From NCBI GenBank assembly GCA_947650365.1, contig OX393552.1, positions 20,122,851-20,186,850 on the forward strand: a DNA stretch of 64,000 nucleotides. The letters run 5' to 3'. Both the position numbers and the translations under genes were made by a program. Below the pieces are notes generated by a model. The model saw only the letters and a list, made by a program, of their open reading frames with translations. It did no database searches and was not told where the DNA came from. The stretch comes from Chamaelirium japonicum (lineage: Eukaryota > Streptophyta > Magnoliopsida > Liliales > Melanthiaceae). This document shows, one piece after another, positions 6,781-64,000 of this stretch. The stretch's first letter is position 1. Every line of letters begins with the position of its first letter.

Positions 6781-6954
6781 CTCCCCAAATTGCCAACAAC
6801 TGATACGGAAGACGATCTAAACTTAGACAATGTCTCGTCGTGTGTTGTAATTCGGTCTCAAATTAAGCCTATTTTAAGAGAATTTTTTATGCACACTTCA
6901 CGAATTACTTAAGAGAACCTGCTTCATATTTTTTTCTCTTTCTTTTTATTTTTA

Positions 6955-7193
6955 GGATTATTTTGACTTTGCCCCCCAAAAATTTACCTTAAATTAGACT
7001 TTAACCCCATCTTTTTATTAATTAGATTTTACCCCCCAAAACTGACTGTTCCACCAGCTCACCCCCCAAAACTTCTCTTAGTTGGTGAGCTGACGGAACG
7101 TTTAGTTTTGGGAGGTAAAGCCTAATTAATGCAAATATGAGAGGTAAAGACTAATTCAAGAGAAGTAGGGGGGGGGCAAAGTCAAAACAACCC
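6955..7193. mobile_element. MULE-type fold-back MITE, copy 1
   Basis: 239-bp element made almost wholly of two inverted arms beginning GGATTATTTTGACTTTGCC. It is flanked by a perfect 9-bp duplication, TTATTTTTA at 6946-6954 and 7194-7202. The arms carry repeated TAGACTTTACCCCCC-type blocks. It belongs to the same family as 35716-35980 and the half copy at 53189-53280. The 9-bp duplication and long arms point to non-autonomous Mutator-like elements. Confidence 0.85.
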
Positions 7194-7399
7194 TTATTTT
7201 TATTGACAAGTTTATCATCACCTCTTCATAACCCACCTCTCCCATCAAAAGATTCAAAACTTCCCACCTCATCAGCACCACCTATGCTCGCCCCCAGTTC
7301 CTCCTCTCTATCACTTGTCGTCACACACTCTATCATCTACTCCCACCTCGCCCGCACCACCTCCCACCTTCCCCTCTCCTTTTCTGTTGGGATCTGAAG

Positions 7400-15264: not shown

Positions 15265-18200
15265 TGTAATACCCGGTACGTTTGATTTCAGGGTAGCCCA
15301 GTTTTAATTATTATTTTATTGTTGCTAAATTGATTGTTTTGTTTCGTATTTATGATCGTCAATGGTGTGTGCTTGAACATGAGTTGGACTGGGCAGTGGG
15401 CCCCGGGTCCGGGTCGCTAGGCAACGCTGGAGGCATGGCAGGAATGTTATTGATGATAATTTAAATTAATTAAAATAACAGGTTTTTAGGCGAGTCTGTC
15501 GGACTCATGAGGTTTGCGCACTGGCCCGTCTTGGTGCGATGCGAGCCCGAGTGTGAGCCTTGCTTAATTGCGAGCAATGATAGAAAAAAAATAAAAAAAA
15601 TAAAAAATAAAAACCCAAATCCAATCTCAACCCAACCCAACCGAACCGACCTTCTCTCTCTATCTCTCTTCCCTCAAATCATAAACCCAAACCCCATCTC
15701 AACCATCCATCTCTCCCTCTCATCTCCACTAATAAAACCGAAACCCACCCAGATCTCTAACCCATCTCAAAAACTGACCTCTCTCCCTCTATCTCTCAGC
15801 CGAACACCCCTAAATCCCGATCTTCTCCCCTATATCTCTCAACCGATCCCTCTCTATCCCGCCGCCCAGCACCCTCCGATCATCCCTCTCAAGCCCGAAT
15901 CCCCTCCCGAAATCCCTACGATTTTCCTCAACGGATCGATCCGATCTCGTCAACCGCAGCCCCGATCCCCCCTGAAATCTCGATCCCCTCTCATCCCTAT
16001 CCCGTCGGGCCCCTCTTCCTCTATAAATAGAACCACCCGACCCGACCCCCCTGATCTCTCTCCGATCTCTCACCCCCGTCCGACCTCTCCCTCTCTTTTG
16101 GATCTCTTTTTCCCTTCCGATCTTCCCCTGTGGTCTGTGAGAGCGGCAGCCGACCGGGGAGGAGCAGCCGGCGCTGGAGAGGAGCAGCCGGAGGAAGAGC
16201 CATAGCCGAGGACCCCCGACTGCACCAGGTCAGCCTCCCCTCCATCCCCTGTTCCTTCTTTTTCCTTCTTTTTCGGCTCTGTTGAGACCAACCCGACAAA
16301 CCCCTGCCTTTTCCCCTTTTTCTGTGCTGATACGACTAGCCACCATTGAACCGTCCCTACCTTCACTGCAACGTCTGTGTCTTGTGCCCGATGGCCCAAC
16401 GAACCCAGTCGACCTTTAGCTTTGCATGACTCCTAACCTGCCGGTTTTGGCCTAGCACCCGAAGCTGAAAACCTAGGGTAGAATTGTTTTTTTTCTTTTT
16501 GGTGGTATTGTTGTTGGCAGTCGGCCCGATGGCGGATTCGCTAAGCCAAACCAAGTCACACCCGAACAACCCTCGTACCCATCCGGTCGTTCCCAGATTC
16601 GACCCAACGAGACTAGTTAATTACCCCCAATCCGAATTTAGACCCTGTAAGGTCCTTAGGTCCGTCTGTAAATTATTTTTCTGAACCCAAAACCCTAGCC
16701 CGAGGACGTCTTGGGCGAAAGATGAACCGAGCCCCGACTTGGCTTTCTCACCCTTGTAGAGACTCACCGACTTAGATTTTAATAAATACTCGTGTGATTG
16801 AATTACTAGTTTGTACCGGGACGATCCAGCCGTGGACGGAGCAGAGGCCAGAGACAGGAGTCCGTGCACGTCGATCAGGTGACACCGCATGCTTTCTTTA
16901 ATAATTAATAATGTTGATATAGAAAATTAAGGGTAGGTATCCATAACGCTGCATGCGGGTCCCGCCGGACGTCGTCGCATGTGGTCGAGTGGACCCCGCC
17001 TTGCATGCGGAGTCGCGAGTCCGGCGACGCATGCATAAAAAGTTAATAATTTAATAATAAATATTCTATTGTTTGCATGGACACTATAGATAGGTATTCC
17101 CTTAAAATGAATAAATAAATGATTAAAAAATTATCGGGACCCACCCTCCTGAGGGGAGCGTGGTAACCCTAGTAAATGGATGTTGGGCGAGAGTGCTTTG
17201 TTATATTTAATTATGATGCTGGGTTGTGAGTGGGTGCGAATCCTGGTGTAATCCATCGAATATGATTAAACATTGTTTAGTTTTCTTTAACGCCATGTGG
17301 TTTGTTAATCGTTGTTAATCTACCTGGTTAGAGGGTAGGGACCCCGTGCGCGCAAGGGTCGTGAACCACCTTGTGCGTACAGCCGAAGTTAAGTAGATTA
17401 GGGGTCACGGGCAAGGGTTGTGGTAAAGTCAATAGGAGGTGCCCTCGAGTAGGGATTGGCCTAGCAACCCTGTCCCGAGGAGTTGAAGTCCCCATAGTAA
17501 AGCAAGTTGGGCGGTAGAGCTCCACCGTGAAAGACGAAAAACCCCTTATGATCATCTGGGTGAATTGTGCATGGAGTTGGTGGATGCACGGCGAGAGAGT
17601 TGGCCCTCTACATCGAAATAAAAGGCCCGATAGTAATGCCCGACCGGGGGCAGGTTGAACAAAATATTCGGGGTTCATGTATGAGTGTGTAATTGTCTGA
17701 TATTAAATTTTGAATTGTATGACTGTTCACACAATGACCTAGTGACAGTAGGATTTGCATGTGAATATAGAAATTGCATGGACACATAGGACGTGATTGA
17801 GAACATAGCTTGATAATTAAGTTAATCAATAATTTGTCTTAAAAATTTGAGCGTTGTTAATTATTAAAATTGTTAGCTTGTCACTAGCCATTTATTTGGC
17901 TAATCTCCCAAATATATTTTTTGGGGGCTACTCATTCCCACGAGTAGACTCTTCTACAGGAGCTGAGGCACAGGAGCAGCAGTAGGAGTCCAGTAGTTAG
18001 CTTAGGGTAGCAGCTTATCTTTCTATTTATGTCAATCTTAGTAGTGGTACTTTTTCATTCGATGTAATCGAATTGGATTGAATAATAATTCTATTATTAG
18101 GTAGCTAGTGTGATAAGTGGTAATGTGCCAGCTGAATTCTTTGGGTAGGCCTCTCCTCAAGGCCCCAAGCCTAGGTTAGATCACCACAAAAATATAACAA

Positions 18201-18630
18201 GAAGAATTGACCTAATTTGACAAGCCCAGTAAATAGGACCTCCAGACAGATGCACCGAGTGTTCGGGAGCGGGTGAGATACTTGGCTCGCCGTCAGAGGC
18301 CTGAGCCTCGTGCTCCTTTAGAGGATATTCTGTCAGTATGTCGTGACATCGTTGGGTCGCATGTACTGAAAGGATATCCCTTTAGCAAGTCGAGCCTGGC
18401 CTAATGTTCTCTCTGTTGATAAATTTTAGTTCTAAAAGGAATACAAATATTTTCAAGTTTCAAACTATCCTCTTTCATTTCTCTCCCTTCTTTCATTTGC
18501 TTGTGTGTGAGCGTAGAAAGAGCCCAGTGAGAATCCTAAATTGGCATAGTTAAGTAACCATACCCAGAACCTCTTCCTTTTTCTCACCTCACACCCCAGG
18601 AATCGGTCTTCAGATTTCTGGGGCGTGACA
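15265..18630 (+). repeat. 5' LTR of the gypsy element
   Basis: Runs from TGTAATACCCGG to GGGGCGTGACA, 3366 bp. A TATA box (TATAAAT, about 16022) follows a CT-rich region and precedes the presumed transcription start. An apparent 232-codon frame inside the LTR lies over this low-complexity CT/CCC-rich stretch and is not treated as a gene. Confidence 0.92.
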
Positions 18631-18632
18631 GC

Positions 18633-18644
18633 TGATATCAGAGC
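18633..18644 (+). promoter_or_regulatory. primer binding site of the gypsy element
   Basis: TGATATCAGAGC lies two bases after the 5' LTR and differs at one position from TGGTATCAGAGC, the usual complement of initiator methionine tRNA in plant LTR elements. Confidence 0.8.
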
Positions 18645-18749
18645 CTAGGGATATATTCCTAGGGGTTAGTTTCTAGGATTATGAGTCAGTCTAGAGTCTA
18701 AATAGTTGGTTAGTAGATGGTTGACGTTAGGACTATCTTTTCATTTCAG

Positions 18750-19900
18750 ATGGCGGGTACTAGGAGTGGAAATGGTGCGAGCAATGGAGTAGGATCGTCC
18801 TCTGCGTCTGATAGCACGACAAGGATAATGGAAATGCTCCAGGGGATGGCCACCATGGTCCAGCAGCAGCAGGCTGCTGTTGCGCAGCAGCAGACGGCTG
18901 CTCAGCAGCAGGGCGAGCTAGCACAGACTGCTCTTGCCCAGGCCCAAGCTCGTCAGCAGGCTGAGGGCGAGCGGCAAGGGAAATTACTGAAAGACTTCAA
19001 GGCGATGGTACCACCGAGCTTCAAGGGAGAGCCAGACCCCATAGAGGTCGATCGATGGTTCCAGCAGACTGAGAAGATACTGAATGCGTTGGGCATCACC
19101 GACGATAGGAGAGTGACCTTCGCCTCGTACCAGTTTGAGGCTGAGGCTAACTTCTGGTGGCAGACAGTCCAGCGCACCAGAGCAGCAGATCGAGGAACGA
19201 TTACATGGCAGGAGTTCGAAGAACTCTTTCGGAAGAAGTTCTTTCCGGTTACCGTGCAGAACCGGATGGAGATGGAGTTTCTAGCGCTATATCAGGGATC
19301 TCGTACTGTGACACAGTATGAGGCCAAGTTCTCGGAGCTTGCGAGGTATGCTCCACACCAGGTGGCGACCGACGGCAGGAGAGCCTTACGCTTTGAGCAT
19401 GGCTTGAATCCAGCGATCAGAGGTAGAGTTACCCCTTTCTTGGGGCAATCTTATGAGGAGTTGGTCAACCGGTCTCTGGCAGTGGAGCAGGAGTTGAAGG
19501 AGTCCTGCGCTATCATGGAGAAGCGGAGTGGCAGCAGTCGCAACGGTCCACCAACTCAGAAGAGGTTTAAGCCTATGGAGACTCGACCACCGTCGCGCCA
19601 GCCTCAGAACTTTTGTGGTCCTCCAACTCTTGGACCACCGCGGCGTGGATGTTTTCAGTGCGGTTCGTTGGAGCATCTGAAGTGGAACTGCCCACAGCTT
19701 CGTCGGCAGCCACTCCTACCAGCTCCACCCCAGAGGCCTGCTCTGCCGCCACCACCTGTGCAGCAGCAGAGGCCTCCACAGAGAGCTCCACAGCAGCAGC
19801 GTCCTCCCCAGCCACAGCAGCAGAGGCCTTTCCCCCGTCAGGGCGGAGGAGGCAACCAGGCTCAGGGAAGGACGTACATGTTAGTTGGTCAAGACCCAGA
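18750..19900 (+). CDS. gag region of the gypsy element
   Basis: Capsid-type polyprotein region of a retrotransposon. After a Q-rich N-terminal part comes the Retrotrans_gag domain (about 19000-19510) with the usual FKG-x-PDP start, WW pair and FF-x-V block, then a P/Q-rich linker with one CCHC zinc knuckle, CFQCGSLEHLKWNC, near 19650. The start at 18750 (MAGTRSG) is typical; an in-frame ATG 33 bases earlier is less likely. Particles would be cytoplasmic. Fossil element; no repair implied. Confidence 0.85.
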
Positions 19901-20034
19901 GGCTTCTGGGGGAGCGATCGAAGGTAACCCTGAACTTAGAATTTCAATTCGTAGACATAATGGTGTAGTTGTCTTTTCTATTTGCTTTGACTCATTAGAA
20001 CCTGTAGCAACCGGTAGCTAGATTAGTTTCTTAC

Positions 20035-23000
20035 ATGTTTCCGATAATGCTAGGTACCCTTCCTGTCTTTTCGACCCTTGCTTTCGTTCATTTCGATAGC
20101 GGGTCTACTCACTCCTATATCGTCCCTAGTTTTGTCAAGACCTTGGGACTGGAGTCGGTTCCATTGAGTAATACTCTGTCAGTGTTTTCACCACTCGGGG
20201 TAAGTACCGATGTGGACCGGATTTGCCGGGACTGCATCATTCATATAGGAGACAGAGAGCTCTCGGCAGACCTCATCATCCTGGACTTAGGAGGAGTGGA
20301 TGTACTGCTTGGGATGGATTGGATGTCAGTCTATCACGTTACCCTTGATTGCTTTACTAAGAAAGTCACATTCTCACTTCCGGGGAGCGAGGCTTTTTAC
20401 TTCTTGGGAGACAAGCAGAAGATCTTGTGCCCGGTACCGCTGCAACAGATAACCCTCAGCTTACTAGCGCAGCTACCGAGTAGAGATAAAGATGGGAATC
20501 CAGTGGTACTATCACTGATGGTTCATGAGTTTTCGGATGTCTTCCCATATGAGCTTCCAGGCTTGCCTCCACCTCGAGAGGTTGAGTTTGCTATAGATTT
20601 GGCACCGAGAGCAGCACCGATCTCGGTTGCTCCATATAGGATGGCTCCCGCGGAGCTAAAGGAGCTGAAGACCCAGTTGGAGGAGTTACTCGATAGAGGC
20701 TTCATTCGTCCCAGCACATCTCCTTGGGGAGCCCCAGTTCTTTTTGCTCAGAAGAAGGATGGGACGAAGAGGCTTTGTATCGACTATCGTAAGCTGAATA
20801 GCTTAACGATCAAGAATAAGTACCTTTTACCGCGAATTGAGAACCTATTTGATCAGCTGAAGGGGGCTTGCTATTTCTCGAAGATTGACCTGAGGACCGG
20901 ATATCACCAGTTGGCTGTGAGAGCAGAGGATATTCCGAAGACGGCGTTCCGGACGCGATATGGGCACTATGAGTTCTTGATCATGCCCTTCGGTCTAACG
21001 AACGCCCCTGCAGCATTTATGGATCTGATGAACCGAGTCTTTAGCATGTTCTTGGATAGATTCATAGTAGTGTTTGTGGACGATGTCCTCATTTACTCCA
21101 AGACGGAGGGAGATCATCGGGAGCACCTGAGTGCTGTGTTGCAGACCCTCAGAGACCACCAACTGTATGCCAAGCTCAGTAAGTGTGAGTTTTGGATGCA
21201 GGAGGTGAAATTTCTCGGACACGTTGTCTCGCAGGAAGGCATCTCCGTGGATCCATCGAAGATAGAGGCCATGATGGACTGGGAGCAGCTGAAGAACGTA
21301 TTTGAGATCAGGAGTTTCTTGGGGCTTGCAGGCTATTACAGACGTTTTGTGGAGGGATTTTCTCATCTAGCAGCACCTCTCACCCGTCTGACAAAAGAGG
21401 GTGTCAGGTTTGAGTGGTCGGAAGATTATGAGAAGTCCTTCCGGGAGTTGAAGAGGTGTCTCACTTCAGCCCCAGTGCTTACGATTCCGGCCAGTGGCAA
21501 AGGTTATGTTGTCTTCACCGATGCCTCACTGATGGGGCTTGGAGCTGTACTGATGCAGGATGGTAGGGTGGTAGCCTATGCTTCTAGGCAATTAAAGACT
21601 CACGAGAGGAACTATCCCACCCATGACTTGGAGTTGGCTGCAGTGGTTTTCGCCCTGAAGATATGGAGGCACTACTTGTACGGTGAGGAGTTCGACATGT
21701 ATTGCGACCATAAGAGTCTGCGATACATCGGGAGTCAGAAGGATCTGAATATGCGACAGAGGAGATGGATCGAGGTCCTGAAGGATTTCAATTATTCGTT
21801 CTTTTACCATCCTGGTAAGGCGAATGCTGTTGCAGATGCCTTGAGCCGAAAGTCCCGTAGCCAGCTTGCTAGATTGGTGACTGATCGACAGGACTTTCTG
21901 GCCACGATATAAGGCTTTGATTTGTGGGTTCAGTGGGAGTCCTCTTATACCGTGTTGTGCACCATACGAGTGCAGCCTAGCCTACTTCAGAAGGTGATTG
22001 CAGCACAGAGGTTGGATTCTGAGTTGGAGGAGATTAGAGTGCGGTACGACAGTGGAGAGTCTGTCCCGGATTGGTCGATCGATGCTGATGGAGGTCTAAG
22101 GTTTCGGAGGAGGTTATGCCTCCCTGCTAATGAGGAGGTTCGAGAGGAGGTGTTGTCAGAGGCGCATCGATCCAAATTCTCGGTGCACCCTGGCGGCACC
22201 AAGATGTATCTTGATTTGAGAAGACAGTTCTGGTGGAAGGGCATGAAGCGTGACGTGGCCGCCTTTGTGTCTAGATGTTTGACTTGTCAGCAAGTCAAGG
22301 CTGAGCACTAAAGACCGGCTGGATTGCTACAACCGCTTTCAGTAGCTGAGTGGAAATGGGAGCACATCACGATGGATTTTGTTTCGGGGTTGCCTCTGAC
22401 CCGGAACAAACATGACTCAGTTTAGGTGATCGTGGACCGACTGACGAAGGCGGTGCACTTTCTTCCGGTGCGGACAACGATGACATCCATCGACCGAGCG
22501 AAGTTATATGTGAGGGAAATTGTCAAGCTGCACGGAGTTCCAGTTTCCATTATCTCGGATCGAGATCCTCGGTTCGTTTCTCGATTTTGGGAGAGCCTGC
22601 AGACAGCTTTGGGGGCGAAGCTCAGTTTTAGCACTGCATTTCACCCGCAGACGGATGGCCAGTCAGAGAGGACGATTCAGATTTTGAAGGATATGTTGCG
22701 GGCTTGCATAGTAGATTTTGGAGGCAGTTGGGAGGAGCACCTACCACTTGTGGAGTTTGCCTACAACAATAGTCACCAAGCTAGCATCGGCATGGCCCCC
22801 TATAAGGCTTTGTACGGGAGGCCATGTCGGTCACCTCTTTGTTGGGCAGAGGTAGGAGAGCAGAGTCTCTTGGGGCCAGAGCTTGTGCAGGAGACGACTG
22901 AGATGATCCAACTGATTAGAGAGCGACTTAGAGCGGCGCAGAGTCGACAGAAGAGCTACGCAGTTGTGCGTCGACGCCCGCTCGAGTTTACTGTCGGAGA

Positions 23001-23405
23001 CCATGTCTTCGTGAAGGTTTCCCCTCGGCGAGGCATCACCAGATTTGGGAAGAAAGGGAAGTTTGCTCCGAGGTTCATAGGTCCTTTCGAGATCTTGGAG
23101 AGAGTTGGCGTGGTGGCATATCGTCTGGCACTGCTCCCGCAGCTCTCTAGCATCCACGGTGTCTTTCACGTGTCAATGCTTCAGAGGTATGAGCCAGACC
23201 TGTCGCACGTGTTAGATTGGCAGGACCTGACTCTCAGTTCAGACGCGTCCTATGAGGATAGACCGGTCAGGATCTTGGCTAGCGAGGATCGAGTGCTTCG
23301 TACAAAGACCATCCCCATGGTGAAGGTGCAGTGGCAATACTGTAGTGAGGAAGAAGCTACGTGGGAGCTCGAGTCAGCGATGCGGTCCCAGTACTCTTTT
23401 TTGTT
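20035..23405 (+). CDS. pol region of the gypsy element (PR-RT-RH-INT-chromodomain)
   Basis: Domains in order: aspartic protease with FDSGSTHSY near 20092; reverse transcriptase (about 20600-21160) with [10 protein letters not shown] and FVDD near 21073; RNase H (about 21500-21770) starting FTDAS; integrase with an HHCC-type zinc region (about 22165-22300), then the catalytic core with [14 protein letters not shown] and GQSERT blocks (about 22425-22850), then the GPF-type extension; and a chromodomain (about 23310-23395) with the VQW..C.EEEATWE pattern. The domain set and order define chromoviruses. The coding frame is in pieces (about two breaks). Fossil. Confidence 0.88.
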
Positions 23406-23447
23406 TGATGATTAGTGTTAGTTAATTTTCGGGATGAAAATTTTAAT

Positions 23448-23460
23448 AAGGTGGGTAGGA
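23448..23460 (+). promoter_or_regulatory. polypurine tract of the gypsy element
   Basis: AAGGTGGGTAGGA lies immediately before the 3' LTR, where the plus-strand primer of reverse transcription is expected. Confidence 0.7.
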
Positions 23461-26400
23461 TGTAATACCCGGTACGTTTGATTTTAGGGCAGCCCAGTTT
23501 TAATTATTATTTTATTGTTGCTAAATTGATTGTTTTGTTTCGCATTTATGATCGTCAATGGTGTGTGCTTGAACATGAGTTGGACTGGGCAGTGGGCCCC
23601 GGGTCCGGGTCTCTAGGCGACGCTGGAGGCATGGAAGGAATGTTATTGATGATAATTTAAATTAATTAAAATAACAGGTTTTTAGGTGAGTCTGTCGGAC
23701 TCGTGAGGTTTGCGCACCGGCCCGTCTCGGTGCGATGCGAGCCCGAGTGTGACCCTTGCTTAATTGCGAGCAATGATAGAAAAAAAAAATTAAAAATTAA
23801 AAACCCAAACCCAATCTCAACCCAACCCAACCGAACCGACCTTCTCTCTCTATCTCTCTTCCCTCAAATCATAAACCCAAACCCCATCTCAACCATCCAT
23901 CTCTCCCTCTCATCTCCACTAATAAAACCGAAACCCACCCAGAAATCTAACCCATATCAAAAACTGACCTCTCTCCCTCTATCTCTCAGCCGAACACCCC
24001 TAAATCCCGATCTTCTCCCCGGTGCGATCTTCCCCCCTCTATCTCTCAACCGATCCCTCTCTATCCCGCCGCCCAGCACCCTCCGATCATCCCTCTCAAG
24101 CCTGAATCCCCACCCGAAATCCCTACAATTTTCCCCAACGGATCGATCCGATCTCGTCAACCGCAGCCCCGATCCCCCCTGAAATCTCGATCCCCTCTCA
24201 TCCCTATCCCGTTGGGCCCCTCTTCCTCTATAAATAGAACCACCCGACCCGACCCCCCTGATTTCTCTCCGATCTCTCACCCCCGTCCGACCTCTCCCTT
24301 TATTTTGGATCTCTTTTTCCCTTCCGATCTTCCCCTGTGGTCTGTGAGAGTGGCAGCCGACCGGGGAGGAGCAGCCGGCGCTGGAGAGGAGCAGCCGGAG
24401 GAAGAGCCATAGCCGAGGACCCCCGACTGCACTAGGTCAGCCTCCCCTCCATCCCCTGTTCCTTCTTTTTCCTTCTTTTTCGGCTCTGTTGAGACCAACC
24501 CGACGAACCCCTGCCTTTTCCCCTTTTTCTGTGCTGATACGACCAGCCACCATCGACCCGTCCCTACCTTCACTGCAACGTCTGTGTCTTGTGCCCGATG
24601 GCCCAACGAACCCAGTCGACCTTTAGCTTTGCATGACTCCTAACCTGCCGGTTTTGACCGAGCACCCGAAGCTGAAAACCTAGGGAAGAATTGTTTTTTT
24701 TATTTTTGGTGGTATTGTTGTTGGCAGTCGGCCCGATGGCGGATTAGCCAAGCCACACCAGGTCACACCCGAACAACCCTCGTACCCATTCGGTCGTTCC
24801 CAGATTCGACCCAACGAGACTAGTTAATTACCCTCGATCCGAATTTAGACCCTGTAAGGTCCTTAGGTCCGTCTGTAAATTATTTTTCTAAACCCAAAAC
24901 CCTAGCCCGAGGACGTCTTGGGCGAAAGACGAACCGAGCCCCGACTTGGCTTTCTCACCCTTGTAGAGACTCACCGACTTAGATTTTAATATATGCTCAT
25001 GTGATTGAATTACTAGTTTGTACCGGGACGATCCAGCCGTGGACGGAGCAGAGGCCAGAGACAGGAGTCCGTGCACGTCGACCAGGTAACACAGCACGCT
25101 TTCTTTAATAATTAATAATGTTGATATAGAAAATTAAGGGTAGGTGTCTATAACGCTGCATGCGGGTCTCGCCGGACGTCGTCGCATGTGGTCGAGTGGA
25201 CCCCGCCTTGCATACGGAGTCGCGAGTCCGACGACGCATGCATAAAAAGTTAATAATTTAATAATAAATATTCTATTGTTTGCATGGACACCATAGATAG
25301 GTATTCCCTTAAAATGAATAAATAAATAATTAAAGAATTATCGGGACCCACCCTCCTGAGGGGAGCGTGGTAACCCTAGTAAATGAATTTTGGGCGAGAG
25401 TGCTTTGTTATATTTAATTATGATGCTGGGTTGTGAGTGGGTGCGAATCCTGGTGTAATCCATCGAATATGATTAAACACTGTTTAGTTTCCTTTAATGC
25501 CATGTGGTTTGTTAATCGTTGTTAATCTACCTGGTTAGAGGGTAGGGACCCCGTGCGTGCAAGGGTCGTGAACCACCTTGCACGTACAGCCGAAGTTAAG
25601 TAGGTTAGGGGTCACGGGCAAGGGTTGTGGCAAAGCCAATAGAAGGTGCCCTCGAGTAGGGATTGGCCTAGCAACCCTGTCCCGGGGAGTTGAAGTCCCC
25701 ATAGTAAAGCAAGTTGGGCGGTAGAGCTCCACCGTGAAAGACGGAAAACCCCTTATGATCATCTGGGTGAATTGTGCATGAAGTTGGTGGATGCACGGCG
25801 AGAGAGTTGGCCCTCTACATCGAAATAAAAGGCCCGATAGTAATGCCCGACCGGGGGTAGGTTGAACAAAATATCCGGGGTTCATGTATGAGTGTGTAAT
25901 TGTCTGATATTAAATTTTGAATTGTATGACTGTTCACACGATGACCTAGTGACAGTAGAATTTGCATGTGAATGTAAAAATTGCATGGACACATAGGACG
26001 TGATTGAGAACATACCTTGACAATTAGGTTAATCAATAATTTATCTTAAAAATTTGAGCGTTGTTAATTATTAAAATTGTTAGTTTGTCACTAGCCATTT
26101 ATTTGGCTAATCTCCCAACTGTATTTTTTGGGGGCTACTCATTCCCACGAGTAGACTCTTTTGCAGGAGCTGAGGCACATGAGCAGCAGTAGGAGTCCAG
26201 CAGTTAGCTTAGGGTAGCAACTTATCTTTCTATTTATGTCAATCTTAGTAGTGGTACTTTTTCATTCGATGTAATCGAATTGGATTGAATAATAATTCTA
26301 TTATTAGGTAGCTAGTGTGATAAGTGGTAATGTGCCAGCTGAATTCTTTGGGTAGGCCTCTCATCAAGGCCCCAAGCCTAGGTTAGATCACCACAAAAAT

Positions 26401-26838
26401 ATAACAAGAAGAATTGACCTAATTTGACAAGCCCAGTAGATAGGACCTCCAGACAGATGCATCGAGTGTTCGGGAGCGGGTGAGATACTTGGCTCGCCGT
26501 CGGAGGCTTGAGCCTCGTGCTCCTTTAGAGGATATTCTGTCAGTATGTCGTGACACCATTGGGTCGCATGTACTGAAAGGATATCCCTTTAGCAGGTCGA
26601 GCCTGGCCTAATGTTCTCTCTGTTGATAAATTTTAGTTCTAAAAGGAATACAAATATTTTCAAGTTTCAAAATATCCTCTTTCGTTTCTCCCCCTTCTTT
26701 CATTTGCTTGTGTGTGAGCGTAGAAAGAGCCCAGTGAGAATCCTAAATTGGCATAGTTAAGTAAACATACTCAGAACCCTCTTCCTTTTTCTCAGCTCAC
26801 ACCCCAGGAATCGGTCTTCAGATTTCTGGGGCGTGACA
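23461..26838 (+). repeat. 3' LTR of the gypsy element
   Basis: 3378 bp, co-linear with the 5' LTR, from TGTAATACCCGG to GGGGCGTGACA, with its TATA box at about 24229. Differences from the 5' copy are scattered substitutions and a few small indels, one of about 17 bp in the CT-rich leader. Confidence 0.92.
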
Positions 26839-35706: not shown

Positions 35707-35715
35707 TCAAATTAA

Positions 35716-35980
35716 GGGTTATTTTGACTTTGCCCCCCAAATTATGCCTTGAATTAGACTTTACCCCCCATTATTTCATTAATTAGACTTTACCGCCCAA
35801 AACTAACAGTTCCGTCAGCTCACCTCTCAAAACTTTATTTCTTTTCCGTCAGCTCACCCTTCCTCTTAGATGAAGAGCTGACGGAACAGTTAGTTTTGGG
35901 GGGTAGAGTCTAATTAATGAAAAGATGGGGGGTAAAGTCTAATTCAAGGCAAAATTTGGGGAGCAAAGTCAAAATAACCC
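35716..35980. mobile_element. MULE-type fold-back MITE, copy 2, just upstream of the F-box pseudogene
   Basis: 265-bp element with inverted arms of about 105 bases, starting GGGTTATTTTGACTTTGCC and ending with the complement. A perfect 9-bp duplication TCAAATTAA flanks it at 35707-35715 and 35981-35989. It ends 108 bp before the F-box ATG, so it lies in the promoter or leader of that locus. Confidence 0.88.
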
Positions 35981-36038
35981 TCAAATTAATCGGAAACTTA
36001 ATCAGCCAAGAGGTTCTTGTACTTTGAATAACCTCCCC

Positions 36039-52160: not shown

Positions 52161-53188
52161 TTTACTACTGCAAGACATCATGGAGTTGGCATGTGTTTTG
52201 GAGGCTAATGAAGGAGAACTCTCTCATCACTAATCAGAGCTATTATGCCGATCGAGCAACAACATCCGGCTTTATAAATTCATCACATTGACACATGCAT
52301 GATATATGCTTGAGGTTGGTTAATTGATGGTCTAACCCTCTGGCAGAGTTGAGTTGTGGGGTGGGGTTATCCCCAGCTAGCTAGTGTACGGCAAGCGACT
52401 TCCTACTGACCAGTGGGTCAGCATCTCGATCGGTGAAGGCGTTAATTCTCCTCCAGCTAGCGCGAGCGGACGTCTCCATGAAGAATCAAAGGTGCTCGAT
52501 TTCCTTCTCGGCAAAGCCTTTGCAGGTCCGCCTAGACCATGATTAGCATGATCACGATGTTGGAGTCGGTGGTTCAACAGCTGTAAATAGTGGCCAAGTT
52601 TTACCACTTTCTTAGTAATAAATTAAATTTTTATTTTTTTTGGTACACCGGATCTCAATAACTTAATTCCCTCAAACACATAGTGGACATGACAACACAG
52701 CAAATTGAGGTCCCTGGCTGCAAGGTGGTACGCACCTTGCGGACGGACGGACGGATCGTGGGCCGGGTGGTGTCCGGCGGAGAAGTATGTGGAGCCTCCA
52801 TTTCCCCTGCCGTATCTCTGTCCGTGCGTCGGGTGGGGGAGGTTGAGGTGTAGCAAGCTGATCCCGCGTGCAGCCGATTCCCCGAGAATTGGCGGACGCA
52901 TCTGGCAGCGAGGAGGTCAGGCTGTTGAGAGCATCTACCTTCTCTGTCTCCCGCTCATCGTCATCGGAGGCGAGCGTAGTACTCCGAGTGCTGCTGCGAG
53001 AAGAGGAAGAGTACCGGTCGCCACTCCTCGATCATGTTCATCACGTTGTCGTCCATCGTTAACGACGGAGACCAGCGTGTCGAGATCCTCGTCGGGCTGC
53101 TGGTAATCGCCGCACAATCCAAGTGCTCCGGTCGTCGTAGGAGAGAACAACGCACCAATGTAGCAAAGCCGGCCGTCGAGGGGGAACA
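52161..53188. other. GC-rich unassigned region
   Basis: 52700-53190 is GC-rich and open in several frames on both strands (longest 133 codons plus, 92 minus). None gives a family I recognise, so it may be a gene remnant or captured GC-rich DNA. 52161-52620 shows nothing. Confidence 0.3.
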
Positions 53189-53280
53189 CTTAGTTTTGGG
53201 GGGTAAAGTCTAATTAATAAAAATATGGGGGGTAAAGTCTAATTCAAGGCAAAATTTGGGGGGCAAAGTCAAAATAACCT
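53189..53280. mobile_element. MULE-type fold-back MITE, right half only
   Basis: Matches the right arm of the elements at 6955 and 35716, from TTAGTTTTGGGGGGTAAAG to GGCAAAGTCAAAATAACC. The left arm is missing and it abuts the GC-rich region directly. Confidence 0.75.
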
Positions 53281-53941: not shown

Positions 53942-55330
53942 TACGTTTGGCATTGGTTTTGAAATTTTAGGTTTTGATTTTGGAATATTATGAACTAGTC
54001 CTGTGCAAAACCGGTTTTAGCTTATCGAGAACCAATCCTAAAATTATCAATATTTTAGCATTTAAATCAGTTTTGAGCCCAAAACTAGTTTTGCAGTTAT
54101 TTCCCCCATTTAAAATATTCTCTTTTAAAAACGTTATCTCTATAACATACTCTCTCTATCACATTCTCTTTCTATAATATTTTCTCATTCAACAATATGC
54201 ACATTCTCTCTATATCATTTTCTCTCTCCAGTAATTTATCATTCTACAACGTTATGTTCGTAATACTCTCTTTATCTATATTCTCTCTTTATAATATTTC
54301 TTTTTAGAGCATTTTCGATCTCTTTATAACATTTCCTCTCTCCACAATATTTTCTCTTTCTCTATAATATCTTCTTTATTTACAATATTTTATCTATATA
54401 ATATTTTATCTTTCTATATTATTTTTCTCCTCTATGTTATTTTCTATCTCTACAATATTTTTTCTTTCTAAAATATTAATTATCTCTACAGTATTTTCTC
54501 TTTGTAACATTTTCTCTCTACACTATTTTCTCTCTTTACAATATTCTCTCTATAACATTTTCTTTCTATGATATTTTCTCTCTATAATATTTTTCCTATG
54601 TATAATATTTTTCTCCTATGTATGATATTTTCTCTCTCTACAATATTTTTCTCTCAATCATATCTCTTTCTATAATTTTTTCCCTCTATGATTTTTTCTC
54701 TCTACAACATTTTTCTTCGACAACATTTTCTTTATAATATTTTCTCCTTCTACAAAACTTTCTCCATTTACAATATTTTCTCCCCTACAACACTTTCTCT
54801 CTATAATATTTTCTCCCATAATAATATTTCATTTCGCTATAATATTGCCTCTCTATATAGCATTTCCTCTCTCTATAATATTTTCTCTCTACAACCTTTC
54901 CTCTATGACATTTTCTCTCTCTATAATATTTTTTCTCTCTGTGTTTTCTTTACAATATTTAATTTTTTTCTCTCTATAGTCTTATTTATTTAATACTTTT
55001 TACCTATATTAATCTCTTTAGTATTTTATCTCTTTAGTATATGTGTATCTAAAATATATTTTTGTATGAATATTCTCTCGATAATAATTTTCTCTCTTTA
55101 CAATAGTTCCTCTCTACAAACATATACGCTATTCACAAAAATTCTCTACCGTTTTGCCCCCTTGCCTCAAGAACCCAAAAGAAAAACCCTAAAGAATTTT
55201 TTTTTTTTTTGGTGATTTTTGATTTTGGTTTTGGAAAACCAACTTTCTAACTGGATCCCAAACATACTTAATATCTTATATCAAAACTAGTTTGGCAAGC
55301 AAAAATCAGGTGTCCAAACCAGCCAATCCC
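53942..55330. repeat. kilobase tract of TCTCTCTATAATATTTT-type repeats between inverted flanks
   Basis: From about 54110 to 55110 the DNA is a degenerate array built from TTCTCTCTATAATATT-like units of about 15-20 bases, one strand being almost free of G. Its flanks are loosely inverted: a CGTTTGG...GGTTTTGATTTTGG stretch near 53942-54000 and a complementary-looking ATCCCAAACATAC and GGTTTTGGAAAACC region near 55210-55330. A 101-codon frame at 54688-54993 is a product of the repeat and not a gene. Confidence 0.6.
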
Positions 55331-57297: not shown

Positions 57298-57378
57298 CAC
57301 CTCTCCCTTAATCCTACTCCCTTATTCCTTCTCTGAGGTCTAGAGAGAGAGAGTGATCAGAGAGAGAGAGAGCGCGCG

Positions 57379-58024
57379 ATGGCCGCCATCAGTGCTTCTT
57401 CAACAACCTCCACCATGGCACGCGCCGCCCTAGTGCCCAAGGGGCCGATCGTCATCTCGTCCTCACCGGTTCTAGGTAAAGTTCAATCCTCGTGGATCTT
57501 TGCTTGCCATAGGATGCCCATCTTGATGGTTTGAACCATGGATTTGAAGTTCAATAATCACGATTAGCGCATAGATTATATAATTTCTTTAAAAAAAAAC
57601 TCATAGATTAATCAATTCATTCATGATGCTCTATAAGTTGAGAGAATTTATGCACATTTTTTTTCGTTGATTTTATTCTTTTGGCGTGGGCTCGATCACA
57701 GGCTTGCCTCAAATAGGAATGAAGGGTGGAAGAGTCAGATGCTCTGCGGCCGAGGGGACGGCTTCGGAGCACCGCAAAGGTGCGGGGGCGTTGTCGCTGT
57801 TGGCGGCAGCGGCGGCGGCGGCGACGGGCGTGATGAGCGTGTCGAGCCCCGCGCTGGCGCTGGTGGACGACAGGCTGAGCACGGAGGGCACGGGGCTGCC
57901 CTTCGGGCTGAGCAACAACCTGCTGGGTTGGATCCTGTTTGGTGTGTTCGGCCTCATCTGGTCCTTCTACTTCATCTACACTTCCACGCTCGAAGAGGAC
58001 GAGGAGTCCGGGCTATCCCTCTAA
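57379..58024 (+). CDS. PSBW: photosystem II reaction centre protein W (PsbW), chloroplast precursor
   Basis: Two exons, 57379-57475 and 57702-58024, joined across a 226-bp GT-AG intron in phase 1, give 139 residues, normal for PsbW precursors. Residues 1 to about 45 are a serine/alanine-rich stromal transit peptide; about 61-85 form a hydrophobic, alanine-rich segment ending SPALA, a typical signal-peptidase site; the mature protein would be residues 86-139. It holds the family signature [20 protein letters not shown], one membrane helix (about 105-127) and the acidic tail [10 protein letters not shown]. PsbW is a thylakoid subunit that stabilises PSII dimers and PSII-LHCII supercomplexes. 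All parts look intact; the ATG is the first in the leader and the reading frame is unbroken. The only doubt is the exact cleavage site. Confidence 0.96.
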
Positions 58025-58029
58025 TTAGC

Positions 58030-58640
58030 TGATGTGCATGTAATTATCAGCTTATAATTAAGCTGATATGTAATTAATTATGTCAAAGTATATTGATTGG
58101 ATGACTTGTGAGAGCAACTTATTCCCCCTTAATCCTCTTCCAGAAGAGGTTATTACCGTCAATTATTATTTCTAATGCAATTTGATAGTCCAGCATTTCG
58201 GTTGGCATAGAAACAGCCGGAGTGATGTTTTTTAGTTTCCAAGTCCTTCGTTCCATCGGAACAATTACTGACCGTTATTTTCAAATCATAGAATTCATAA
58301 TGGGAATAGATTGTTCCGGAATGATGCCAAACACCGCTTAATGCGGTGGTTGTTTCTTTAATTAATGCTTCAATTCTACTGACATCACGATAAATAAGTA
58401 TGACAAAAATCTTCATTCAATGCATAGAATAATATCAGCATTAACATTAAGCATCGATAATAAAATAACGATATGGTGATTGTATTGTACACACACTCTC
58501 GTATTACTCTTGTATGTCTGACCCACACAAACTATAGAGTACAGCCAACGTATCCTAGCACACGCAGACAATCCATTCATACCCCAAACAACTCCCACAT
58601 GGACACTCAGGCTCGCCCACCCTTATGTTAACTTGGTTAT
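58030..58640. other. downstream flank of PSBW
   Basis: AT-rich 3' flank, probably holding the PSBW 3' untranslated region. No other feature seen. Confidence 0.4.
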
Positions 58641-59130
58641 GTATAATATAAACATTTGCTAGGGATGTATGTGAAAAGGGGTGCATAAACAATATTCACT
58701 TTGATATAGGGGAAACCAACAAAAAGCCCTTTTATATGAGGTAAACCAGAGGGGACGATGGGAGAAACTTGGTTATGTTTAATATCAATATTTGCTAGGG
58801 GGGTGTATCTGCAAAGAGATACTTAAATCATCCCTTTGATATAAGGAAAACCCACCAGAATCCAGTTTCCCCATGGGTATATATATAATAGGGAATTGAA
58901 ACCAATAGGAATCTGGTTTCTCCATGGATGTAGGATTTCAGTAGAAGAGATCATAGAGTCTTTTATATATAATAGGGGTATATATATAGATTTGATATAA
59001 GGGAAACCCCTCGGAATCCGATTCCACAGGGGTATACGTTTTGCTATAAGGAAAATCAACTGGAATCCAATTTTCTCATGGGTGTAGGATTTCAATAGAT
59101 GCGATCATAGCGCCTTTTATAATAGGGTTA
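58641..59130. repeat. degenerate local repeat cluster
   Basis: A unit like GATATAAGGGAAACC(A/C)ACCGGAAT then CC(A/G)(A/T)TTTCC and TGGGTGTAGGATTTCA(A/G)TAGA recurs about four to five times with variable spacing (near 58700, 58840, 58905, 58990, 59040). No coding sequence. Confidence 0.55.
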
Positions 59131-59164
59131 TAGATCATCATAAATAGTGAATGGACTTGAAGGA

Positions 59165-59320
59165 AATGCTATTTGAACATACATGGAGACATAATGCCAA
59201 TGTGAGGACATTGGTCAGCGCTCGATGCGATAATTGATGCACTGAGCATTGGCCGATGCTTCCCACGTCGGCATTATGCCCGCGAGTATGTCTCCTTGTA
59301 TGTTCAAGTAGCAAGCCTTG
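59165..59320. repeat. inverted repeat with arms of about 45 bases
   Basis: Arms near 59167-59208 and 59264-59315 are imperfect complements sharing TTGAACATACA and GGAGACATA, separated by about 60 bases. It could fold into a hairpin or be a small fold-back element; no target duplication was found. Confidence 0.5.
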
Positions 59321-59494
59321 ATACAAAATGAGTGGAACATACAAGCATAGGACGACGAGCCAGAGGGAACATGCAAGCAAGCATAGGACATCATCGAGCA
59401 TGGATGTGGCATTTGTCTATGTGAAAGTTGTTATTGTCATGTACATGACCCTTTGTTTTACGGTGGGGGCATAACAATCGTACGTGGGCGGTCA

Positions 59495-60901
59495 TGTAGA
59501 TACCCTCTCGTCCCAAAACCCGGATTATAAGGGGAGGTCCACAAGAGGGTATCTGAGCACACCATTGTCCAGTCCCTAGCCGATGTGGGACTAAACCCAA
59601 TAATCCCCCCCCTCACGCGAGGCTAGGGCTGAACCACCCGCAAGCCCCCATCTCGTGAGGCAACTGACAGGAGGACACTCCAGCCCAACTAGATCCGAAC
59701 TGGGCGACAACATAGCTCTGATACCATTTGTAGATACACTCTCGCCCCAAAACCCAGGTTGTAAGGGGAGGTCCACCATAGGGTATATGAGCACACCATC
59801 GCCCAGTCCTTAGCCAATGTGGGACTAAACCCAACAATCCCCCCCTCACACGAGGTTAGGGCTGAACCACCCGCCAGCCCCCCTCTCGTGCGGCAGGCGA
59901 CAAGGGAGGAGGACACATCGACCCGACTAGATCCGAACTAGGCAACAACCTGATTATGATATCAGTTGTTGGCGCGGAATACCTCAGATCATGTCTCAAT
60001 TCGCCGCCTCACGCTCACGGAAGCGATCTAGGGTTTTTGGATCTCCGACGATCTACAATCATAGAGAAAAATAGCAAAGAAAATAATCCACACGACACAA
60101 AGATATTTGTCCACGCAATTCGAAAATATCTACCTTTGTGGGTGTCGGTCACCGTCCTGGAGCAATGGAATTAGAACTTAAGAGTTTACAACCCTCTTCT
60201 TCTTCCTTGTCTCCACCGGATCTCAAGGTGATGAATCTCTTATCTCGATCCCTGATCTTCTTCATCTCTCAAACGCAAGCGAGAAGACCAAAAAAAGACC
60301 CTAAAATGAGCTATCAAACACAATGACAACCCCTTACAAAGCCTAGAGTGAAAACCCTATAAATAGCTCCCACAAATCGTGCAAACACGGATCCAACCTG
60401 TGCACGTTTTGTGCATGGCGTCCAGTGGCGGGCGCCACTCTCGCGATGAGATTTCTCCCCCTCACACGAGGCTAGGGATGAACCACCCGCCAGCCCCCCT
60501 CTCGTGAGGCAGGCAACAAGGGCGGCAACCTGGTTCTGATACCATTTGTAGATACCCTCTCACCCCAAAACCCGGGTCATAAGGTGAGGTTCATTATAGG
60601 GTATTTAAGCACACCATTGCCCAGCCCCTAGCTGATGTGGGACTAAACCCAATAAACCCCCCCTCACATGTGGCTAGGGTTGAACCTCCCGCTAGCCCCC
60701 CCTCGTGCGGCACTAGGGGACGATAAACTCATGGGTACAATCAACCCACACCCGGCTAAACCTGGTTGGGCAGAACCTAGATCTGATACCATTTGTAGAT
60801 ACCGTCTCGCCCCAAAACCTGGGTCGTAAGGGGAGGTCCATTAGAGGGTATTTATGCACACCATTACCCAGCCCCTAGTCGATGTGTGACTAAACCCAAC
60901 A
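59495..60901 (-). mobile_element. head-to-tail TRIM array: four 108-bp LTRs and one foreign LTR-like segment
   Basis: Four LTRs of exactly 108 bp (59495-59602, 59729-59836, 60547-60654, 60794-60901) each begin TGTAGATAC in the plus sense and end AACCCAACA or AACCCAATA. Between them are internal segments of about 125-140 bp that start with a CCCCCC-rich purine-tract complement and end with a primer-site complement (GCTCTGATACCA at 59715-59726, perfect). Orientation is therefore minus. At about 59967-60452 the LTR position is taken by a different segment of about 485 bp, with TRIM internal sequence on both sides in the same orientation. Noncoding throughout. Such LTR arrays arise by unequal recombination. 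Confidence 0.82.
59967..60452 (-). mobile_element. foreign LTR-like segment inside the TRIM array
   Basis: It starts TGTTGGCGCGGAATACC right after a worn primer-site complement (GATTATGATATCA), and ends near CGCGATGAGA before the TRIM purine tract. It contains ACCCTATAAATAGC near 60357, phrases typical of plant copia LTRs, and a TATA-like site. The end lacks a clear CA. Whether it is an inserted solo LTR or a chimeric element is open. Confidence 0.5.
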
Positions 60902-61500
60902 GAGTTAGCAGAGTTGGATAGTTGAGCAATGTTTGTAGATGGTGAGATGTTGATTGGTACAACATTATGGTAGATTTTGAATTCTTCTGTGAGAAGATAG
61001 CCGAGTAAATCAGCGAGGTGAACTGGTTTGTCCCGAGTAGTAATTGAGCCCCGAAATGGACCATATCAGGGGTGAGGTTGTTAGATGAATTATTGGAGAT
61101 GCCCATGGCCGGTTCTAAAACAAAGAGATATGGGGGAGGTGTGGAAGGGGAGGTCGGTGGTAACTAGGGTTTGGATTGGTCTGAGAATGTTGTGGCCCAA
61201 AGAGGAAGGATGAAGGTCATGTATGAAGGCCTTGATACCATGTGAAAACATGGTAGCAAGTTTGGATTTTGGTTGCTTTCCATTGATCTCATATATTACA
61301 ATGAATAAAGAATTTTAGGGTATAACAAACATAACAATGATTACAAGTGGCAGGTGATGATTCAGTGAGGCATTAACAAGCTATGAGATTTGGTCAATGT
61401 GGAGTTAAGATGGTTTTGAATTCTTTTCTTTGATAAAGTCGTGCATGTTGCGAATCCTCCTCCAACAGTACTAGATGAATAATTCGATATCGAATCGCTT
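60902..61500 (-). mobile_element. 5' end of a Ty1/copia relic
   Basis: Plus-sense CTTGATACCA at 61231-61240 is a primer-site complement and abuts TGTGAAAACATGG, the end of an LTR that runs rightward from 61241 (far boundary unclear, about 61500). To the left, the minus strand opens a short gag-like start (MGISNNSSNNL) near 61105. The remainder is cut off by the TRIM array. Broken fossil. Confidence 0.5.
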
Positions 61501-61529
61501 TGACCACGTAGGTCAATAAAGATCAATTG

Positions 61530-61623
61530 CACAATAACGATTCTTCGATGAATCGATGCGAAACAAGCAATTCATCACACAATAGAGAAATAACAAAGCA
61601 AGAGAGAAACAAACACAAAGCAA

Positions 61624-61678
<55 letters not shown>

Positions 61679-64000
61679 TTTACATGAAACCCTTGTGGAA
61701 AAAATCATAGGCGAAGACGATCGGACAATCCACTATCACGAACAATGGATCGGAGTTACAAGCAACGCCCAACTCCAACAAGATGAACTCCCTTCAGCGA
61801 GAGCACCTCCTTCTTCTCCAAAATCTCTCTCCAAGATTCCCTTAAGTTTCTTCTTCAATGCATACAAAACTTCTATCATCCCCAAAACCCTAGACTCCTT
61901 TATATACCAGGAGAATATGTTACACAAGGTAATCCTGAGATTTTCACAAAATAGCCAAATCTGGAAAGTCAAATCGTACAAGACTGCATCAAACCCGTGC
62001 TTGTCAGGCACATTTGTGAGCATGACCTGGGAAAGTCGTGCGCATGACCACCTGTAGGCTTCCGCTAAAGGACACGTCAAAAATCTCAGGGGCCAAAGTC
62101 ATGTGCACGACTGTTGGGTCATGCACACGATTGCTTGGGGATAAATACGCCCTTTTTCAAGGATGTGTCGACTTTATCAGATGGTATGGTTGTGCGCATG
62201 ACTTCTACAGTCGAGCCATGCCTCAACAATCTCCACCTTGGTGAGAAGTATGAATTCAAATTCAATCGTCGTCTCCACTTGCACCCTAACGGTGCACAAA
62301 GATACCTCCTCGATATCCCAAAACGTGTCCTGAAGACGCACAAAGTATCCTGAAGGTGTGAAATTTCTCAAATCATCTTGACTAAGCTTAGATAATGTCT
62401 GAACTTAGTCACTGGAATCGGCTTTGTCAACATGTCGACAGGATTATCATGCGTGAAAATCTTTTTCAAAGAAACCGTCTTTTGCTTGATATGCTACCGA
62501 ACAAAATGATAACAAATATAAATATGCTTCGTCCATGAGTGATGGACCTGATCGTCATTCACCAAGTAGATAGCGTTTTGGCTATCGGAAAACATCTCCA
62601 TGCTAACCTGCAAAAGATTGAACTCGCCCATAATACCTCGGAGCTGAATTACCTCCTTGGCGCCGTCCGTAATGGCCATGTATTCAGCCTCTGTTGTCGA
62701 CAGTGCAGCCATGTCATGTAGAGGCATTCCAACTCTCCAGACCATATGCCTGTATAAAGAAATAACCTATCATAGACTGATGCCCATCCAGGTCACCAAC
62801 ATAGTCTGCATCAACATATCCCACTATATCTCTGACTGAGTCGCCATCTCTCTGAAAGAGTAATCCCAAGTCCAGTGTACCCTGAAGGTATCGTAATATC
62901 CACTTCACTGCCTACCAATGCTCCTTCCCTGGATCAGTCATGTAACGACTGACTACACTGACTACCTGTGCAATATCTGAATGAGTACACACTATGACGT
63001 ACATCAAACTGCCGACTGCACTTGCATACGATACATGAACCATGTAAACATGCTCGTCATCGGTGCTCGAAGATTGTTTCGTTGATAGTTGGAAGTGTGC
63101 AGCAAGGGGGATGCTAATTGGATTAGCACCACCTATCCCTTAACGAGAAACCATCTTCTGAAAATAGTTTTTTTACGTCAAACGAACTGTACCATGCTTC
63201 CAATCCCTGTGAATCTTCACCCCAAGAATTTTCTTCGCACCGCCCAAGTCCTTTATCTCAAATTCATCACTCAACTAAGATTTCAGGATATTGATATCTG
63301 ACATGCTCTTTGCAGTAAAAAACATGCCATCCATATATAAAAGAAGAAATATTAATAAACCATCACGAAACTTTCTGAAGTAGACACAATGATCATACTC
63401 ACTTCTAACGTACCTGTGATCTCCTATGAATGTGTCAAATCTCTTGTACCACTATCTCGGCGATTGCTTTAGGCTGTACAAGGACTTCCTCAATCAGCAC
63501 ACATGGTCTTCCTTGCCTTCTACCATGAATCACTCAGGCTGTTGTATGTAGATAAGCTATTCCAACTCAATATACAAGAACACTGTCTTCACATCTAGCT
63601 ATTCTAGCTCAAGATCAAATAGTGCTATCATAGCCAATAACAGAATAGAGGTGTGCTTCACTATACGTGAAAACACCTCATTGTAGTTGACGTCATTCTG
63701 CTGTAAGTAGCCCTTAGCTACCAATCGTGCTTTGTACCGAATACCACCTGGAGCCTTCCCTTTCTTCTTGTAAATCCATTTGCAGCCGATCATATTCTGC
63801 TCTCTGGGTCTCGCAACAAGCTCCCAAGTCTGATCCTTATGAAGAGATACTATCTCTTCACCTATGGCCGCTCCCTACTCAACGCAACCTCTGTCCTGGA
63901 CTGCCTTACGAAAAGTGGTCAGCTCATCACTATGAATAAGAATTAGTGTATAAGCAACTAACTCCTCGTACCCGTATCTGATTGGAGCTCTGATAGTCCG
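61530..64000 (-). mobile_element. Ty1/copia relic running off the right edge
   Basis: Minus strand. The 3' LTR ends (plus sense) at 62228, CCTCAACA beside ATCTCCACCTTGG, the purine-tract complement; its left boundary is near 61530 and uncertain. Then come RNase H (TTEAEYMAITDGAKEVIQL near 62640-62700, with WILRYLQGTLDLGLLF near 62860-62905) and RT (CKWIYKKKGKAPGGIRYKA near 63735-63787). Several breaks; the 5' half lies outside the window. It is related by LTR motif to the relic at 28991-31249. Confidence 0.75.
61626..61676. repeat. (CA)n microsatellite
   Basis: A pure CA run of about 50 bases inside the copia LTR region. Confidence 0.95.

Follow-up and report, generated by a model that had tools for sequence, protein, structure and literature searches.

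A truncated copia LTR in a tandem TRIM array of Chamaelirium japonicum, and TRIM elements with an LTR of another family elsewhere in the genome

The TRIM array and its surroundings

The window, the whole stretch of 64,000 nucleotides analysed here (C4:20122851-20186850 of the 1.52-Gb assembly of Chamaelirium japonicum), contains a Photosystem II PsbW gene, a Ty3/gypsy-type element, several repeats and a tandem array of TRIM units (Table 1). The array consists of four TRIM LTRs and one foreign segment, every unit lying on the minus strand; read on that strand the order is LTR d, internal, LTR c, internal, foreign segment, internal, LTR b, internal, LTR a. Each of the small LTRs is exactly 108 bp long, as an earlier note on this DNA had it, and the foreign segment that it described is real, although it measures 489 bp and not 485 bp. 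The units have the features of TRIMs: short LTRs with TG..CA ends (TGTTGGG..TCTACA on the minus strand; LTRs a and c start with TA), the primer site TGGTATCAGAGC, a G-run as purine tract and no coding region, with internals of 91-139 bp. With four LTRs and four internals the locus belongs among tandemly arrayed TRIMs, which have more than two TRIM LTRs with internals, but its LTR slots are not all filled by one family, as a copia LTR occupies the middle one.

Table 1. Features of the array and of the remainder of the window (window coordinates).
Feature	Position	Strand	Remarks
TRIM LTR a	59495..59602	-	108 bp; 3' outer end of array; outer flank GGTCA
TRIM internal a/b	59603..59728	-	126 bp; primer site 59715-59726; G-run adjoins LTR a
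TRIM LTR b	59729..59836	-	108 bp
TRIM internal between LTR b and foreign segment	59837..59966	-	130 bp; degraded primer site 59953-59964
Spacer by foreign segment	59965-59966	-	AC on minus strand, as in most copia-family copies
Foreign segment, colinear part	59967..60430	-	3' part of Ty1/copia LTR; CCAACA end at 59967; segment in all 59967-60455
TATA-like motif (putative)	60358..60365	-	TATTTATA in foreign LTR; label is our assumption, function putative
Inverted copia U3 patch	60431..60455	+	25 nt; starts at palindrome GGCGCC
TRIM internal by LTR c	60456..60546	-	91 bp, internal deletion; primer site 60533-60544; G-run touches inverted patch
TRIM LTR c	60547..60654	-	108 bp
TRIM internal c/d	60655..60793	-	139 bp; divergent subtype; primer site 60780-60791
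TRIM LTR d	60794..60901	-	108 bp; 5' outer end of array; outer flank GAGTT
Photosystem II PsbW gene	57337-58024	+	~1.5 kb from array; PF07123, E 2.9e-47 (57671-58021); likely first exon at 57337, weak match
Ty3/gypsy-type element	15265-26838		gag, protease, RT, integrase and chromo-like domains; enclosed by ~3.4-kb direct repeats, 96% identical
Imperfect tandem array	54098-55125		16-18 bp unit TCTCTATAATATTTTC and variants
MITE-like family, related palindromic repeats	35709-35987, 6946-7217, 53183-53279		35709-35987 is an inverted repeat of ~280 nt, 81% complementary
MITE-like inverted repeat	59167-59313		just left of array; 27-nt repeat, 93% complementary, 93 nt apart
Copia remains	60902-64000	-	RVT_2 fragments 63599-63874 and 63275-63451; LTR-like stretch; further primer-site-like 12-mer at 61229-61240

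The motif TGGTATCAGAGC, which we take to be the initiator-Met-type primer site of plant LTR elements, is matched with 0, 1 and 1 mismatches next to LTRs b, c and d, and with 4 mismatches next to the foreign segment. This last, degraded site is not a chance likeness, because only 312 of the 127,978 12-mers on the two strands of the window lie within 4 mismatches of the motif and because the internal around it can be aligned with the other TRIM internals.

The four LTRs differ from each other by K2P distances of 0.13-0.19, the outer pair, a and d, being 84% alike. The internal c/d represents another subtype (K2P 0.25-0.38 to the remaining internals), and the 91-bp internal next to LTR c lacks ~36 nt. 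Attempts to date or group the LTRs gave no clear answer: site patterns divide into four for ab|cd, two for ac|bd and one for ad|bc, and the history of the array is ambiguous because rare changes are common to a and b, to c and d, or to a and c. For each window LTR, the five nearest LTRs include none of the other three. Cassandra identity was ruled out by an Rfam scan of positions 58000-63000, which detected no 5S rRNA-like sequence and gave a single match, to another family and with a score under the gathering cut-off. A search of a plasmid collection gave no match, and a search of viral contigs with a TRIM oligonucleotide likewise returned 0 matches.

Identity and limits of the foreign segment

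A genome search with the foreign segment gave 41 match rows including the segment itself (40 of 611 candidates scored), and the next best match among those listed is 79% identical. In the family copies examined the homology stops at ..CCAACA or a similar end, and at 12 of 30 family loci a primer site follows the LTR end. The spacer ahead of the primer site in these 12 copies, which include two near-identical pairs (L005/L006 and L016/L017), is AC in 8, AT in 3, TC in 1 and AA in 0; it is AC at the window segment as against AA at TRIM LTRs b, c and d. One family member, L063, carries RVT_2, Retrotran_gag_2 and Pol_BBD domains between LTRs of 723 and 707 bp and has ACATA flanks on both sides, and the relatives of the segment are thus LTRs of elements with copia-type gag and reverse transcriptase. 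From this family homology, the CCAACA end with its AC spacer, and the domains and LTRs of L063, the segment is recognisable as the 3' part, about two thirds, of a Ty1/copia LTR that lies in the same orientation as the TRIMs and retains its natural 3' terminus. It does not represent a full LTR of 485 bp, since complete LTRs of the family are 691-723 bp long. A comparison of the segment with LTR-like DNA of the window flanks (blastn, short words) gave chance-level matches only.

The two sides of the segment differ. Its intact 3' end meets the TRIM internal at the initiator-Met-type primer site common to both families, and the join falls inside or beside that shared site; the crossover cannot be placed more closely because the adjoining primer site has 4 mismatches. 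At the other side, comparison with the 723-bp LTR indicates that the first ~225 bp (U3) are gone, together with a 33-nt stretch, and the outermost 25 nt are an inverted piece of U3 that abuts the TRIM purine tract. This 25-nt motif occurs in forward orientation in 11 of 29 other copies (with at most 6 edits) and inverted in none of the 29; its match in L014 covers 24 of 25 nt (1 edit), and the body of the segment is ~78% alike. The purine-tract side is no LTR terminus. The earlier statement that the segment lies exactly where an LTR belongs therefore holds for the primer-site side and fails for the purine-tract side, with its truncated U3 and inverted patch.

No duplication of 4-6 bp is present at the outer ends of the array, where GGTCA and GAGTT agree at one of five bases. 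A target duplication around the segment itself, which by the earlier note would speak against an exchange, was sought as well: none of 5-6 bp occurs in the scanned grid, but the scan is weak, since in so wide a grid a 5-bp match turns up at 47% of random places, and two 4-bp matches near the segment both lie away from the LTR end.

At the level of the family, TRIM insertions do have 5-bp duplications, the window array being without one. Among 27 other distinct TRIM loci, 16 have an exact 5-bp duplication and 4 more agree at four of five bases, whereas only 1 of 702 mismatched flank pairs drawn from 27 loci agreed in all 5. Of 30 TRIM loci, the following were left out of this control: L031 (the window array), L039 and L058, which repeat loci that had been counted, L055, and L033, L035, L046 and L049 with truncated or wrongly clustered ends. 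L045 and L055 both have CGCTG and lie 17 kb apart, possibly as one duplicated locus, in which case the count becomes 15 of 26. TRIM arrays with exact duplications are found at L043 (four LTRs), L047 and L051 (three each). The first of these (L043, the same locus as L058, at C11:59164071-59164935) is a clean four-LTR array with an exact duplication, AGATG, and makes a good control.

Hybrid elements elsewhere in the genome

The pattern of a foreign LTR end followed by primer site and TRIM internal was found at 48 sites in the genome, as against 0 in the control, and ten of these were fetched for inspection. In an independent sample, defined by primer site and TRIM internal (76 sites; control 0), at least 7 of the 76 TRIM primer sites, representing 6 events, bear a foreign LTR; the window slot and X68 fall outside the pattern behind this sample. 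Among the best matches listed of 735 sites, most are TRIM LTR ends. Joins of the same type as that in the window were found on C2, C6, C7 and C9.

At two loci a single internal has unlike LTRs on its two sides, and the whole unit is enclosed by a duplication. In L074 (C7:28547500-28549000) a copia LTR of the segment's own family (342-978) is followed by a primer site, a TRIM internal (979-1108) and a TRIM LTR (1109-1216), with ACCCC on both sides; the copia LTR has both of its ends, is 637 bp long with an internal gap, and starts with TA, and the spacer is AA, the TRIM type. In X76 (C2:59229700-59232600) a 1270-bp LTR of another family, here called Z, precedes primer site, TRIM internal and TRIM LTR, with GTTTT on both sides; the locus accounts for two of the 48 pattern sites and lies in a 959-bp tandem duplication. 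X69 again joins an LTR of the segment's copia family, with both ends, to a TRIM internal and TRIM LTR, but its flanks, TATTT and TCAAT, form no duplication.

More complex or less complete joins were also seen. L065 reads TRIM LTR, internal, an odd LTR, Z internal, Z LTR, TRIM internal and TRIM LTR; it has TCTTC on both sides, the flanks being rich in CT, and its outer LTRs are 90% alike. It accounts for two of the 48 pattern sites, of which one is an ordinary TRIM LTR. At positions 835-905 of this locus an LTR slot contains a rearranged TRIM LTR, in which the part enclosed by two short inverted repeats appears to be inverted. X67 has yet another LTR joined to a TRIM internal, with a copia-like purine tract ahead of that LTR, and X68 combines a third LTR with a c/d-type TRIM internal, a TRIM LTR, a primer site, a Z internal and a Z LTR. 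L066 consists of a Z LTR and 41 nt of TRIM internal. With X67, X68, L066 and L078 (described below) outside the count, as one end is cut or the copy lies inside another element, three of the five testable chimeras have an exact 5-bp duplication (L074, X76 and L065) and two do not (X69 and the window array). L075 was dropped as a TRIM chimera, having only 22 nt in common with TRIM. In L061 (6985-7240) a 3' LTR of the segment's copia family touches an oppositely oriented TRIM at its purine-tract end, where CAACA runs straight into TRIM internal with no TRIM LTR in between.

The earlier note had proposed a genuine exchange of LTRs between two retroelement families, to be sought in stand-alone elements with the segment's LTR at both ends of the TRIM internal. 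The genome yielded none with a segment-family LTR at both ends; it did yield L074, with such an LTR at the 5' end and a TRIM LTR at the 3' end, and X76, with an LTR of another family. It is therefore very likely that families exchange LTRs in this genome. The window locus alone is no proof of it, because the 5' end of the segment is no LTR end and the array is without a target duplication; it is probably a damaged instance, in which the 3' terminus joined within the shared primer site speaks for the proposal and the truncated other side with its inverted patch does not.

Origin of the hybrids

In the standard replication cycle the plus-strand strong-stop DNA consists of LTR and primer site, and it anneals to the minus strand at the end that carries the primer site. 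The reading that we favour, and regard as reasonably probable, is that this second strand transfer took place between families at their common primer site, and that the window hybrid was shortened afterwards and became joined to another TRIM array. According to this model, TRIM and copia RNAs with the same initiator-Met-type primer site would have been packaged in one particle, and copia plus-strand strong-stop DNA would have annealed to the primer-site end of the TRIM minus strand, its wrong partner. Extension would then give copia LTR, primer site, TRIM internal and TRIM LTR in one step, and integrase would insert the product. Such products would include L074, X76 and, in its undamaged state, the array's right-hand half in the window (segment, internal, LTR b, internal, LTR a), with a two-unit TRIM as partner. 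Another TRIM copy would account for the left-hand half (LTR d, internal, LTR c, internal), that copy having lost its last LTR at a break. This break would have removed the 5' part of the copia LTR, and its repair would have left the 25-nt inverted U3 piece joined to the purine tract of the neighbouring array.

The window has a join at the primer site, and elements of the hybrid form with 5-bp flanking duplications are present at two other loci; that the window copy arose by the same route as these is what we infer. A later break and fusion in the window is suggested by the inverted patch, by outer flanks that do not match and by the lack of a duplication, and fusion fits because each window LTR is nearer to LTRs elsewhere than to the others of the array and because the outer flanks differ, though LTRs of the array do have a few rare changes in common. 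Several further observations count against the model. Second strand transfer would predict the spacer of the donor, and the AA of L074, seen in 0 of 12 copia copies, therefore speaks against its simplest form; the copia LTR of that locus (637 bp) also starts with TA and has an internal gap. No duplication attests a single insertion at the window array, nor at X69 with the same LTR family, and the TCTTC of L065 lies within CT-rich flanks. The inverted patch would also need a template in trans, and it matches L014 at 24/25 nt, the body being ~78% alike.

An origin by DNA recombination only, without any strand transfer between families, appears rather unlikely. A copia element would have lain beside TRIMs, a microhomology deletion between two 12-bp primer sites would have taken out the body of the copia element together with a TRIM LTR, and a second break would have been closed with filler. 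The window array suits such events, having no duplication, unlike outer flanks and an inverted patch, and short inverted templated insertions, mostly of about 5-34 bp, are reported at breaks in yeast (PMC11724301). X67 and X69 fit as well, and the purine tract ahead of the LTR in X67 may be better explained by copy-choice or DNA recombination. However, this route does not easily produce L074, X76 and L065, where the five bases immediately beyond the two LTR ends match exactly.

It is distinctly improbable that the whole array is one mosaic product of reverse transcription, comparable to L065, and that its duplication has since decayed and its foreign LTR suffered later damage. L065 does have TRIM LTRs outside, a foreign LTR inside and TCTTC on both sides, and the distances between the window LTRs (K2P 0.13-0.19) are all of one order. 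Template-switching complexes, however, have a duplication and closely alike outer LTRs, and the window array has GGTCA and GAGTT, agreeing at only 1 of 5 bases, and outer LTRs 84% alike. Moreover, the foreign LTR of L065 comes after what appears to be its own internal and purine tract, whereas that of the window follows a TRIM tract and is truncated in U3, and the internal c/d is of another subtype. An assembly artefact is very improbable: repeats are a known cause of mis-joins, but the same type of join recurs on C2, C6, C7 and C9 and the array units differ by K2P of at least 0.13. The least credible account, in which a copia element or a solo LTR simply inserted into the TRIM array, was rejected, for although insertions nested in TRIMs are known (Wukong, PMC4528315), no TRIM LTR sequence remains on either side of the segment, its 5' LTR end is absent and the scan around it, weak as it is, gave no 5-bp duplication.

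Known systems, implications and a converse hybrid

TRIM arrays, template-switching complexes, recombination of Onsen and LTR swapping are already known. The last of these, an exchange of LTRs between autonomous and non-autonomous elements, is said to occur in soybean, going by the title of a 2010 paper of Du et al. The tandemly arrayed TRIMs of Gao et al. (2016, PMC4717578) likewise alternate short LTRs and internals, share LTRs and have 5-bp duplications around intact arrays, but the available part of that account describes no slot with the LTR of another family, as is found in the window. L065 fits the template-switching complexes of Triticeae, in which co-packaged RNAs and use of the wrong template lead to a complex insertion with a duplication (Sabot and Schulman, 2007, PMC1950507). 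In that model the R regions of similar elements pair and the outer LTRs are alike, whereas in L074 and X76 the two outer LTRs are unlike and the join lies at the primer site. Co-packaged transcripts of Onsen recombine pairwise and give recombinant LTRs in extrachromosomal DNA, but within one family and with junctions in R, U3 and coding sequence (PMC5668417). Tandem LTR retrotransposons of rice share LTRs and have duplications at their flanks, but are described as copies of one element with no LTR of another family (PMC11899658). TRIM tandem arrays are also formed by Cassandra, for which recombination and template switching have both been proposed (PMC7215508); its LTRs contain the 5S rRNA-like sequence that the Rfam scan did not find in the window array. 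In the literature compared, consisting of open-licence papers partly available to us, we found no report of a single element with a TRIM LTR at one end, an LTR of another family at the other and a duplication around both, which is no proof of absence.

TRIMs encode nothing, and for most the partner is not known: in 278 of 289 plant TRIM subfamilies Gao et al. (PMC4717578) detected no relative that encodes the enzymes. It is possible, if somewhat short of probable, that TRIM RNA is reverse transcribed in the particles of several unrelated LTR families, with the initiator-Met primer site as a universal joint and second strand transfer repeatedly giving the TRIM the 5' LTR of its helper. If so, the foreign 5' LTR would name the helper, and each chimera would be a fossil of the TRIM's mobiliser; if that LTR marks the copying particle, the genome sequence itself reveals the helper, which can then be put to the test. 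Elements with two unlike LTRs would further demonstrate that the primer site alone is enough for second strand transfer to pair DNAs from different families. They would also imply that integrase is able to insert DNA bearing two unlike LTR ends. The dating rule that both LTRs are identical at birth would fail for such insertions, and their LTR-LTR divergence could not date them.

The converse pattern, a TRIM LTR end followed by primer site and copia internal, was found at 2 sites. In L078 a copia U3 (205-539) passes into approximately the last 29 nt of a TRIM LTR (532-558), followed by AA, the primer site and copia internal (561-940, 86%), the remainder of the element being missing. Its structure looks as that of a first-strand-transfer recombinant would, with TRIM minus-strand strong-stop DNA landing on copia RNA. 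L079 was dropped as a copia chimera, being a TRIM with a different internal: on the minus strand of that locus (301-662), TRIM LTRs of the 108-bp type enclose an unrelated internal, and LTRs and internals thus seem to be modular beyond the copia swaps.
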